The notes under the pieces were generated by a model, which was given only the letters and a program-made list of their open reading frames with translations, did not search any database and was not told where the DNA came from. Of a DNA stretch of 64,000 bases, positions 14,901-59,309 are shown piece by piece. Every line of letters begins with the position of its first letter. The stretch's first letter is position 1. This DNA comes from Anaerolineae bacterium (GTDB lineage Bacteria > Chloroflexota > Anaerolineae > Anaerolineales > Villigracilaceae): assembly GCA_003130845.1 (NCBI GenBank), contig QEXW01000045.1, forward strand, positions 1 through 64,000. Direction: 5' to 3'. The position numbers and the translations under genes were made by a program.

Positions 14901-15301
14901 TCATCTTGGTATAAGGAAATTGCTTCTTCCAGTAAGAAGATGGTTTCTGGTTGGTCGTTTCGTGGGCGGCTTTGAGAAATCAACAGCCGGAAATGATTGA
15001 CATCAATCCAAATCGCTTCGCGTGCATCCGGCGAAAGTCCTACAAGGTCGCGCTCAGCCCGTATCCACCCTGGGCCAAAGGTTTGGTTGATTTCCCATAA
15101 AGTGCGCCGTAAGTATGCCAAAACGTGGTGAGTATCTTGGTCAGGCCATAGTAACGTGGCAAGGGCCTCACGCGTATAATCCATTCCATTTACAGCCAAA
15201 TAAATCAGTAAGGCCAAAGCTTTACGACGGTCGGTGACAACCGGCCGACCATCCAATTCAGCACGAGGCAAGCCAAAGAGATGCAACGTCAAACGGGGCA
15301 T
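11993..15301 (-). CDS. SARP/AfsR-like STAND transcriptional regulator with TPR domain
   Basis: A 1102-aa activator. Residues 1 to about 95 form an OmpR-type winged helix (MPRLTLHLFGLPRAELDG start), followed by the bacterial transcriptional activation domain to about 250 (LYAQNGQMSDALRQYQEYARVL). A STAND/NB-ARC ATPase core follows: Walker A GPGGVGKTR near 304 and Walker B LLLILDNLEHL. The C-terminal 450 residues are tetratricopeptide-like repeats, for example SALHCHQSSLEISSELNDRR and EARQQHQQSMQLSHELGNA. The frame extends upstream to 15382, but those residues would be encoded by the shared promoter region. It is divergent from the maltodextrin operon, whose promoter carries three direct repeats of the SARP type. 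It may therefore act as a MalT-like sugar sensor of different ancestry. Confidence 0.9.
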   Translation of the reverse strand: MPRLTLHLFGLPRAELDGRPVVTDRRKALALLIYLAVNGMDYTREALATLLWPDQDTHHVLAYLRRTLWEINQTFGPGWIRAERDLVGLSPDAREAIWIDVNHFRLLISQSRPRNDQPETIFLLEEAISLYQDDFLSGFYLKDASLYEEWMTSQAETLRHDYLFALETLARNYAKRGDLPKAIEKAAQWAKRDPLNETAHSFLMGLYAQNGQMSDALRQYQEYARVLALEMQMDPSPEMRAMLETIKKQAFQQPSPPPFDLKSLTTRFNLPESPYATSFFGRRVELAELEKLLKDPQTRLISIVGPGGVGKTRLALEVGRIQANWFTDGVCFVPLAAVARPEYIVSSIADALGVRFSSSEIRSQQEQLTEFLHPRHLLLILDNLEHLQLGSTVVSELIETLLHNAPYLKVLVTSHERLNLLQEWTFYVKGMPIPDADDANWSQFAAIQLFLQNVRKAAGVLHLTESERRAITRICRLVGGLPLGLELAATWTRMLSCQEIADEIERSLDFLKAPFRNIVERHQSLRATFEYSWNFLNQSEQETLMRLSVFRGGFKRDIAQSMFQADLATLVDLADKSFIHRDENGRFDIQQALKPFVAQKLQQHPDLEMSLTAHHASFYASFTAEQCRALRGHGQRAALDELNAELDNILAGWNWALAQGRSDIVLSFYEGLFRFFDLRNRFQDAEALFAHAVEQWQTVADEQDIVLGVLLACHAWFCNRLSHITRAHQLLLHSLTILRRLNARPHLMFVNGLALYVVPMVGDMNEIEQIAQETLNYYQEQDDRWGMAQILPFFHRIKTPQSLQEAIRLHNQTLDIYRETGDAAGLASALTSLGELLHYTGDYESALHCHQSSLEISSELNDRRVMAASLDYLGFINRQIGKFDEARQQHQQSMQLSHELGNALGIAGSLDNLGLIALDQGEASQALSLFQQALSLRRESGQIGSVATSLEHIATAALQLNNLSLAQTCLEEALELFAREPEWALTSRARNRLGDLERARHNLLAAEMHYRTAWREAQEHESVLVLLDSTLCLADLFAAQGNVRQAVQLAHYVAQHRACEFVMRQRALKLLDNLHALFAETDWSDLIHTKLTILSLQNILHN

Positions 15302-15323
15302 GGAAGAATTATACCTGCAGGGC

Positions 15324-21623: not shown

Positions 21624-21629
21624 TATAAT
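21624..21629 (+). promoter_or_regulatory. Promoter -10 box of the alaS leader transcript
   Basis: A perfect TATAAT lies 7 bases before the ATG of the leader peptide, so the transcript probably begins at or next to that ATG (leaderless). No good -35 hexamer is seen. Confidence 0.6.
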
Positions 21630-21636
21630 ACACTCA

Positions 21637-21753
21637 ATGCAACTTCAACCGCTCAACCGCGCCTCCGCTCTTTGCCCGGCAACCCGCAAACAACAACGCG
21701 GGGCCAATGCCGGGCGGTCTTTCCTCTCTTCTGCTGAGCCGGTCACGGCGTGA
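21637..21753 (+). CDS. Putative alaS leader peptide, 38 aa, alanine-rich
   Basis: A 38-codon ORF with seven Ala codons (residues 9, 11, 15, 23, 25, 33 and the last sense codon 38) ends 21 bases before an intrinsic terminator in front of alaS. It begins MQLQPLNRASALC and ends SSAEPVTA. Ala 9 and 11 lie just before, and Ala 15 inside, the 5' arm of a hairpin that can trade partners with the terminator. This suggests ribosome-mediated attenuation by Ala-tRNA supply, as in trp and his leaders. No Shine-Dalgarno is present; the transcript is probably leaderless. It is not conserved evidence, only a layout argument. Confidence 0.55.
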   Translation: MQLQPLNRASALCPATRKQQRGANAGRSFLSSAEPVTA

Positions 21754-21808
21754 TTTGCCCGTTCCTTGCCTTTATCCCGGCTCAACGCGAGACCGGGATT
21801 TTCGTTTT
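21674..21808 (+). promoter_or_regulatory. alaS attenuator with mutually exclusive hairpins
   Basis: Strand 1 GCCCGGC (21674-21680) pairs with strand 2 GCCGGGC (21709-21715), extended by CCCGC/GCGGG. Strand 3 ATCCCGG (21774-21780) pairs with strand 4 CCGGGAT (21793-21799), followed by TTTTCGTTTTT: an intrinsic terminator. GCCGGG of strand 2 can instead pair with CCCGGC (21776-21781), and TGAGCCGG (21735-21742) can pair with CCGGCTCA (21777-21784). Either alternative pairing breaks the terminator. The leader ORF runs through strands 1 and 2 and stops at 21753. This is the 1:2, 2:3, 3:4 architecture of classical attenuation. Confidence 0.65.
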
Positions 21809-21867
21809 TCAACAATCTTATCTTCCTCTTGATATAATTCCACCATACTCACCCTCTGGGAGTCAGC

Positions 21868-53539: not shown

Positions 53540-54691
53540 TTACGGCAGAGGTAAGTTGCCAGCATAACCGGTCAGTTCGACATATCCATTGCCGCTGACA
53601 GGTTGTCCCTGGCACACTCCCTCGAAGCGCACCGCCCCCTCCCAATAGGTGACAGCAGGGAAATGAACTTCTTGGTCGGACATCCACGGTTGAAGGGTAA
53701 GGGTGCAGGCCGGACGGTTGAGCCGAATTTGCCAGCCGGCCGGGTAGTCACCCCCGGTACGTGGGCTGCGCCAGCGGTGAGTAACCAGGATGTCAAAATC
53801 GGTGTGTTGCAAAGCAAGTGTTGCGCCATCTGCATCAATAAACGTGCCGCTGGAGGCAGGTGAAACATCCCCATTCGTTTCACGCAACTGAAACAGCATC
53901 AGCGCCGCCCCATCTTCAAATTGCAGAGAAAACCAATCCCATCCAATCTGACCTTCATCGAGGACGCCGGTGCTGAATTCATGGTCTTTCCAGGCCAGTC
54001 CACTGACCAGGAACGTTTCGCCCTGTACTTGAAGCGTTCCTTCGGCGCGCAAACGCGGCTGACTATAGTAATATGACGCATTGCTCGGCTGACTCCCTTT
54101 GCGGCTATAGCCGGCCTGTCCATGCAAAATAACGCCCAGTTCATCGGTCAGAGTCAAATCCAAAACCACATTGTCCTGCACGGCTTGCATGTGATAGACC
54201 TTTGGCGCAATTTCAAGCACCTGCCAATCTTCCAGCCAGACCCGGTAAGGGTCTCCCTGGGCGCCTGCCAATCCCGGACCAGGACGAGCATAGCGTTCAT
54301 AGGCATAAAAGGCGTTCGCAGCAATATCGCTCACGGCAAAATGAGCAAAATACATACTGTGGTTGTACCAGGCCGAGTCGACAGGTAACGAGATAGTCGG
54401 TGGAATCAGCCCCACCCGAAAGATAGTCAACTCGAAGCCAAAACGACGGCCTGCAGGCGTGGCGAGATTGCCGGTGTAATACCACCACTCGGTGCGAAAA
54501 TCGGGATGCGCGCCGAAATCAGCCGGAAAGGTGAGTGGGCGTGAACCATCGGCCACAGCAAAGCCTTCCACAGGCGCAGGGGCTTCCATCTGCCATTGGA
54601 GTTGAGCAGAGTGCGTTGGGGGGGCAGCGCAATTGACCAAACCCAATACCAACAAAACAAAAAAGCAACCAAATCGGATACGCCGTATCAT
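53540..54691 (-). CDS. AttH/CrtC-like secreted lipoprotein
   Basis: A 383-aa exported protein with a lipoprotein signal ([12 protein letters not shown], Cys21). The body is the lipocalin-like fold of AttH and carotenoid 1,2-hydratase families: [28 protein letters not shown] near 60-90, [32 protein letters not shown] and [20 protein letters not shown]. Homologues are called predicted secreted hydrolases. It is divergent from an ABC ATPase/FtsX permease pair, and these three genes often form one module in other bacteria. A carotenoid role is possible but not supported by neighbours. Confidence 0.85.
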
Positions 54692-54781
54692 GATTTGGAT
54701 TATACGGTCTTCCGTGCGCTGAGGTGGTTTTTCATGCTTATCACTGACATTCTTCTAACATTTGGCGGCTACAATCAACCC

Positions 54782-59221: not shown

Positions 59222-59231
59222 AAAATCGTCA

Positions 59232-59309
59232 TTGGCGATGAGGCTCGCCACAACCGTCCTACAGACTGATGGCCTCTACTGAACCCGCGCTTTCAGTAGA
59301 GGCTCTTTT
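59232..59309 (+). promoter_or_regulatory. Fluoride riboswitch (crcB motif) with intrinsic terminator
   Basis: The aptamer core matches the fluoride riboswitch almost base for base: GGCGATGAGGC, CGCC, AACCG and CTGATGGCCTCTACTG. Pairings: GGCG (59234-59237) with CGCC (59246-59249) as pseudoknot, GAGGC (59240-59244) with GCCTC (59272-59276), and a small GTC/GAC stem (59256-59266). The same GCCTC strand also begins the terminator hairpin GCCTCTACTGA (59272-59282) with TCAGTAGAGGC (59293-59303), followed by TCTTTT. The two folds exclude each other, giving an ON switch: fluoride keeps the strand in the aptamer and lets transcription pass. It controls the MutS-like genes and crcB downstream. Confidence 0.96.
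59272..59309 (+). terminator. Riboswitch-controlled terminator
   Basis: An 11-bp perfect stem with a 10-base loop and a T-rich tail, sharing its 5' arm with the aptamer helix. It ends 16 bases before the first coding sequence of the operon. Confidence 0.93.

Follow-up and report, generated by a model that had tools for sequence, protein, structure and literature searches.

A conserved alanine-codon leader before alaS in a Chloroflexota family: a probable trp-type attenuator on a leaderless transcript

The stretch of DNA analysed here (the window, 64,000 nucleotides) carries alaS, encoding alanyl-tRNA synthetase (AlaRS), preceded by a promoter-like box (P1), a short ORF, a terminator hairpin and a second promoter (P2). 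The coordinates are collected in Table 1. The first-pass annotation had described a TATAAT seven bases before a 38-codon ORF with seven Ala codons, and inspection of the sequence confirms this, the ATG lying at 21637. The predicted peptide is MQLQPLNRASALCPATRKQQRGANAGRSFLSSAEPVTA followed by the stop codon, with Ala at codons 9, 11, 15, 23, 25, 33 and 38. The T run behind the hairpin reads TTTTCGTTTTT and the extended −10 element of P2 reads TGATATAAT, its TATAAT occupying 21833–21838.

Table 1 Features of the alaS leader locus (positions in the window)
Feature	Position	Strand	Basis
P1 −10 box TATAAT	21624..21629	+	sequence; TATAAT/TATACT 6–9 nt 5′ of leader ATG in 51 genomes
Leader ORF, 38 codons, 7 Ala, without Shine–Dalgarno sequence	21637..21753	+	ATG is presumed transcription start; equivalents in 50 other genomes
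Regulatory Ala codons 9, 11, 15, 23, 25 (21661, 21667, 21679, 21703, 21709)	21661..21711	+	minimum-energy fold is one and the same antiterminator whichever of these codons holds the stalled ribosome
Strand 1	21656..21668	+	pairs with strand 2 (21733–21743) if ribosome-free; minimum-energy fold; equivalent CTCAAGCCG:CGGCTTGAG helix in 38 relatives
Side hairpin 21674–21681 : 21708–21715	21674..21715	+	folding; GCCCGGC...GCCGGG kept in six leaders, three genera
Strand 2 (GCUGAGCCGGU), bearing antiterminator 5′ arm UGAGCCGG (21735–21742)	21733..21743	+	fold; equivalent strand conserved at all three codon positions in relatives
Antiterminator 3′ arm CCGGCUCA (strand 3), overlapping terminator 5′ arm	21777..21784	+	fold; also in L006, and in L015 with one G–U pair
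Terminator hairpin 21774–21783 : 21789–21799, about −15 kcal/mol; U-rich tract to about 21808	21774..21799	+	fold; all 51 leaders have a terminator
Second promoter P2 (TCAACA, 18 nt, TG-A-TATAAT)	21809..21838	+	between terminator and alaS
alaS Shine–Dalgarno sequence GGGAG	21858-21862	+	sequence
alaS, alanyl-tRNA synthetase, 926 aa	21868..24648	+	Pfam PF01411 (E 1e-186), PF07973, PF02272

Taken as a single sequence the window leader is modestly unusual in structure and the evidence is only suggestive: its fold has a z score of −2.4, with 3 of 200 shuffles equally stable, and its switch between stall and stop is equalled by 20% of shuffles, a score that is not significant. A simple terminator scan of the window did not list the leader terminator, probably because of a bulge. 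The leader is in fact a weak specimen of its kind. Its Ala content is 18% with no run of Ala codons, two of the seven Ala codons lie in or 3′ of strand 2, and the U tract is interrupted by CG.

It is the comparison across the family, not the single sequence, that raises the leader far above chance. The nearest named records are metagenome assemblies of Anaerolineales (Chloroflexota). A DNA search with the window leader detected no relative by BLAST in 60 genomes, because the leader diverges too fast; the upstream regions were therefore gathered through the AlaRS protein, giving 128 alaS loci from the same family, 123 of which have at least 300 nt upstream of alaS and form the comparison set. 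The leader unit precedes alaS in 51 of these 123 genomes, spread over 8 of 24 genera, and keeps one order: TATAAT, usually 7 nt, ATG, an Ala-rich ORF of 20–38 codons and a strong terminator. The −10 box is TATAAT in 50 leaders and TATACT in one, and its distance to the ATG is 7 nt in 38 leaders, 8 nt in 11, and 6 or 9 nt in one each. With a spacing of 7–8 nt, transcription would begin at the leader ATG or immediately beside it. All 51 units have the terminator, 17–37 nt 3′ of the leader stop codon, so that the terminated RNA would be about 125–175 nt long. In the same-family upstream regions, 50 short ORFs matching TATAAT-N6..9-ATG have at least four Ala codons and none has fewer; the reversed-sequence control gave one. 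Example leaders are MKQTFKPSAAAQAAAATCATCEPATA (L170), MITPVSFASAQAAAARASSS (L025) and, from the genus of the window, MQPELRFTLSASALCPAMDAGLPFPLSFEPVVA (L006). The first-pass annotation had named lack of conservation of the ORF or the pairing in relatives among the findings that would count against its proposal of a ribosome-mediated attenuator on a leaderless transcript; both are conserved and the proposal is supported by the family comparison.

In the source genome the pattern TATAAT-N6..8-ATG was counted 113 times and its reversed form 20 times, so that leaderless genes are common there. Two more such sites on the minus strand of the window (15299–15313 and 54689–54704) open long ORFs and are likely ordinary leaderless genes. 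An order-wide search for the pattern with four Ala codons was set aside, as the matches outside the family looked like chance by eye, many with the GCN run out of frame. In one distant Anaerolineales record (L052, 2743–2982), alaS is preceded by an ORF rich in Ala (11 Ala), a candidate antiterminator of 7 bp (GAGCCCG:CGGGCTC) and a terminator, and no TATAAT lies from that terminator to the gene.

Selection acts differently along the leader. Ala makes up 405 of 1344 in-frame residues (30%) in the 51 leaders, compared with 6.2% and 5.4% in the other frames; the best column is Ala in 51 of 51, with GCC, GCT, GCG and GCA all in use. In the best-sampled genus the identity at codon positions 1/2/3 is 0.85/0.91/0.68 in the Ala region, 0.62/0.72/0.68 (no codon pattern) at the N-terminus, and 0.93/0.83/0.91 in the C-terminal strand 2 region over the stop codon, where all three positions are conserved. 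Selection thus preserves Ala at the level of codons and strand 2 at the level of RNA, but not the peptide itself. Five leaders stop 10–11 nt short of strand 2 yet retain its sequence, as CGGCTTGAG or TGGCTTGAG.

The folds were examined in the window and in the relatives. A helix between strand 1, which covers the first Ala codons, and strand 2, which spans the stop codon, is common to 38 leaders; it is 9 bp in nearly all of them and shows few changes, mostly to G–U wobbles. Its support is thus conservation and wobble changes and not many compensatory pairs, covariation being scarce because the helix is so conserved. Strand 2 of the relatives runs on into GGcUUGaGACUG, which is complementary to CAGUCcCGAaCC, the terminator 5′ arm. 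Strand 1 of the window also lies on Ala codons and hides UGAGCCGG in the resting fold. When a ribosome is placed at Ala 9, 11, 15, 23 or 25, the minimum-energy fold is the antiterminator UGAGCCGG:CCGGCUCA; with the ribosome at the stop codon it is the terminator.

These folds revise the pairing scheme that had been put forward for the window. The complementarities named there are real: GCCCGGC (21674–21680) with GCCGGGC (21709–21715) as 1:2, GCCGGG (21709–21714) with CCCGGC (21776–21781) as 2:3, and ATCCCGG (21774–21780) with CCGGGAT (21793–21799), followed by the U-rich tract, as 3:4. The alternating trp-type scheme and the 3:4 terminator stand, and the named 1:2 pairing becomes a side hairpin (also found in two related genera), the strand 1 of Table 1 taking its place. 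The named 2:3 pairing was rejected as the main antiterminator; with the ribosome stalled at any mid-leader Ala codon, the minimum-energy fold contains 21735–21742 : 21777–21784 instead, a pairing that recurs in two other genomes (G002 and G034). A stall at Ala 9, 11 or 15 does free the antiterminator by folding, as had been suggested, with the strand partners changed and with Ala 23 and 25 acting likewise.

At equilibrium almost all states are dominated by the terminator, whose probability in the window is about 0.97. The equilibrium probability does not discriminate and was abandoned as a readout; with the terminator dominant, the switch must be kinetic, as in trp. We therefore used a co-transcriptional measure, the probability of the terminator 5′ arm being captured while its 3′ partner has yet to be transcribed. 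By this measure, folding of the 51 leaders gave sequestration of the 5′ arm of 0.60 with an Ala stall, 0.33 with no ribosome and 0.18 with the ribosome at the stop codon, compared with 0.34, 0.38 and 0.18 for dinucleotide-shuffled leaders. The difference between Ala stall and no ribosome is 0.267, against −0.035 (sd 0.029, maximum 0.021) over 30 shuffle sets. The Ala-stall value exceeds the no-ribosome value in 48 of 51 leaders (shuffles 40%) and the stop value in 49 of 51, although the leaders are related to one another and so do not count as 51 separate tests. When the values are averaged by genus, the Ala stall scores above the ribosome-free state in seven of the eight genera and level with it in the remaining one, a genus with a single leader. 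The folding model is a poor match for some leaders (L027, L035). In prediction and in conservation, the leaders thus have these attributes of the trp type: a leader with cognate codons, a terminator, mutually exclusive antiterminator and protector pairings, and stall-dependent switching by folding.

The first-pass annotation had not named the second promoter, P2, which usually has the extended −10 element TGGTATAAT. Of the 51 genomes with a leader, 48 have such a promoter behind the terminator and ahead of alaS; of the 74 leader-less relatives, 65 have one upstream of the gene. P1 itself has an extended −10 element in 31 of 51 leaders; that of the window does not. Judging by this arrangement, only transcripts from P1 would be attenuated and P2 could supply alaS without the leader. 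As P2 lies 3′ of the terminator, the attenuator would top up the basal supply of alaS in an alanine-dependent way. The leader is missing in 72 of 123 genomes, including the closest relative (G009, 97% AlaRS identity). Since P2 is present and most of the family, G009 included, does without the leader, the leader is useful but not essential.

The promoter-like box and its spacing, the coding selection on Ala codons, the selection on strand 2 as RNA, the terminator and the switching fold are all conserved. We infer the 5′ end of the leader, its translation, stalling and the response to alanine; events would run as follows. RNA polymerase would start at P1, with the leader AUG at the 5′ end of the transcript or within a base or two of it, and a ribosome would load without a Shine–Dalgarno sequence and trail the polymerase. 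Where Ala-tRNA is well charged, the ribosome would reach the stop codon and mask strand 2, and the 3:4 hairpin and U tract would terminate transcription about 60 nt 5′ of alaS. Where charged Ala-tRNA is scarce, the ribosome would stall on an Ala codon and cover strand 1, leaving strand 2 to pair with the terminator 5′ arm and allowing readthrough into alaS. P2, 3′ of the terminator, would provide basal alaS transcription regardless. We consider it likely, with good though not complete confidence, that transcription of alaS from the upstream promoter is governed by a ribosome-mediated attenuator of the trp type whose transcript is leaderless. The alanine leader very probably raises AlaRS output when charged Ala-tRNA runs short.

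Other readings of the same unit were weighed. The ORF could encode a functional small Ala-rich protein, with the hairpin merely its terminator and alaS run by P2 alone; P2 is indeed present with or without the leader, and a terminated P1 transcript would make a complete small gene. We regard this as quite improbable, as the N-terminal part is without coding constraint, conservation of the C-terminal part extends to third positions, the ORF varies in length between 20 and 38 codons, and in five leaders strand 2 lies beyond the stop codon and is kept as non-coding RNA. Moreover, the unit precedes alaS, and its Tyr and Pro sister units precede tyrS and the proS operon. No more credible is that the terminated RNA acts mainly in trans as a small RNA, as rnTrpL does in Sinorhizobium. 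Every leader does end in an efficient-looking terminator that would release such an RNA, but Ala-codon selection and stall-dependent pairing would be left unexplained; a role in trans could also coexist with attenuation.

The low Ala density, the broken U tract, the P1 without extended −10 element and the leader-less closest relative would all fit a relict, functional in an ancestor and decaying in the source species while P2 does the work. Against this, which we think unlikely, G002, a different species of the window's genus whose DNA has otherwise diverged at the leader locus, has the same UGAGCCGG:CCGGCUCA arms, ASALCPA codons and terminator. Finally, control of alaS by a T-box or another tRNA or metabolite riboswitch would be in keeping with the eight T-box matches in the source genome, several of them before other synthetase genes. 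However, no T-box match (RF00230) lies upstream of alaS in the window, in its own genome or in 20 leader-less relatives, and an Rfam search of the window at a permissive threshold gave only chance matches, with no T-box or other family at alaS. At the sensitivity of Rfam a T-box is excluded, and we attach next to no weight to this reading.

The attenuator reading of the alaS leader also finds a place among the other amino-acid control elements of these genomes. Ten genomes of the family have 7–8 T-box matches each. Those of the source genome include matches before thrS, ileS, serS, valS, leuS and a trpB-like gene, and in relatives they also stand before pheS; no T-box was found before alaS, tyrS or proS in the source genome. 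Leaderless Tyr-rich leaders precede tyrS in seven of eight genomes searched, and in a pattern search of 61 genomes every in-frame leaderless short ORF of the YYY type that was examined precedes tyrS. Pro-rich leaders head an operon ending in proS (5 of 5 genomes), and a leader with HHHH precedes hisG in the source genome, its −10 box TACAAT lying 10 nt before the ATG. Stall-dependent antitermination is supported by folding for the hisG leader and part of the proS leaders; results for tyrS are mixed. This lineage of Chloroflexota probably uses two kinds of tRNA-sensing device in its synthetase control, with T-boxes at the genes for Ile, Val, Leu, Thr, Ser, Phe and Trp and leaderless leader-peptide attenuators at those for Ala, Tyr, Pro and His; the attenuator of alaS would be an addition ahead of a constitutive promoter.

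Individual elements were recorded along the way. The T-box match before the trpB-like gene is at G000:C91:40563-40868 (G000 being the source genome), and further matches are at G000:C36:87131-87454 and G000:C5:53624-53892. In many of the family's genera a Tyr leader and terminator immediately precede tyrS, as at about 1254–1371 of L383 (G000:C47); others are L376, L377, L378, L379, L380, L387, L442, L443, L446-L449, L451-L456 and L459. By eye, the arms of the tyrS leaders (GCGAGGG/CCCTCGC, GCTGCGG/CCGCAGC, CTGTGGAG/CTCCACAG) differ between genera and stay complementary. The Pro leaders (PSPSP, PNPSP, PSPFP, with terminator) are L331 (G000:C151), L329, L330, L332 and L333, and the operon that they head contains proS and the gene of a LOG-like protein, joined in some copies by a MazG-like gene (named by eye from sequence). 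The hisG leader MKLTLALHHHHLLFPLPDQSAG with its terminator begins at about 126 of L298 (G000:C114). A possible Met-rich leader (MNARQLFKTTMPMEMRICTQWRAR) with a terminator precedes metG in one genome only (L360, G088). Elsewhere in the window, at 59225–59285, a fluoride riboswitch (RF01734) precedes a pair of genes, at 59269 and 60849, whose products are MutS-like (Pfam MutS_V in the first), and no crcB-type gene adjoins the riboswitch in the stretch read.

In attenuators of the trp type (trpL, hisL, pheM-pheST) cognate codons lie over strand 1, the 1:2, 2:3 and 3:4 pairings are mutually exclusive and a terminator follows. The alaS leader shares all of these with them. It differs from the enterobacterial leaders, which have a 5′ UTR and a Shine–Dalgarno sequence, in starting at or next to its presumed 5′ end. 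T-boxes have been described for alaS in Clostridium acetobutylicum (PMC4695836) and Streptococcus pneumoniae (PMC8546594); they too control alaS by transcription antitermination in response to uncharged tRNA-Ala, as proposed for the leader, but they sense it by direct tRNA–RNA binding, and the leader locus has no T-box. Both T-boxes (PMC2494555) and leaderless genes (PMC3160421) have been reported in Chloroflexi. According to a 2010 survey, leader-peptide attenuation was known only in Proteobacteria, Actinobacteria and, newly, Firmicutes (PMC2965389). Our literature search found no report of it for Chloroflexota, and a leader peptide for alaS reported once, later than that survey. What looks to be new here is a probable alaS attenuator of the trp type that has a leaderless transcript and occurs in Chloroflexota, as part of an apparently lineage-wide set. 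With both sensors present in a single genome, the choice between T-box and leader peptide at each synthetase gene becomes testable, and the pattern of TATAAT, about 6–8 nt, ATG, a run of cognate codons and a terminator offers a rule for regulon searches in uncultured Chloroflexota.

The one earlier report is the prediction of alaL in Streptomyces lividans TK24 (PMC8079986, 2021), so that the alaS attenuator, which the first-pass annotation had called unusual, is rare but has a precedent. In the available part of that report, alaL is a leader peptide (MNVIGRNIFATARATSSPVAAA, 6 Ala) upstream of alaS, found by RNA-seq, proposed as an attenuator and called the first of its type. An Ala-containing leader peptide before alaS is thus common to both. 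alaL is an RNA-seq prediction from one actinobacterium; the same part of the report gives no comparative or functional test of it, does not call it leaderless and describes no antiterminator, whereas the Chloroflexota leaders come from 51 genomes and have a second promoter 3′ of the terminator; the peptides show no evident similarity beyond their Ala content. leuL, trpL, ilvL and thrL of S. lividans are leaderless leader peptides (PMC8079986), as are the mycobacterial polycysteine uORFs (via PMC13236596). These actinobacterial cases resemble the alaS leaders in being short leaderless ORFs with cognate codons before biosynthesis or synthetase genes. They belong to another phylum, and several lack a clear terminator, whereas all 51 alaS leaders have one. 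A conserved alaS leader with no 5′ UTR suggests that attenuation of the trp type can run on leaderless initiation outside Actinobacteria, and it bears on how a ribosome can load fast enough behind the polymerase without a Shine–Dalgarno sequence.
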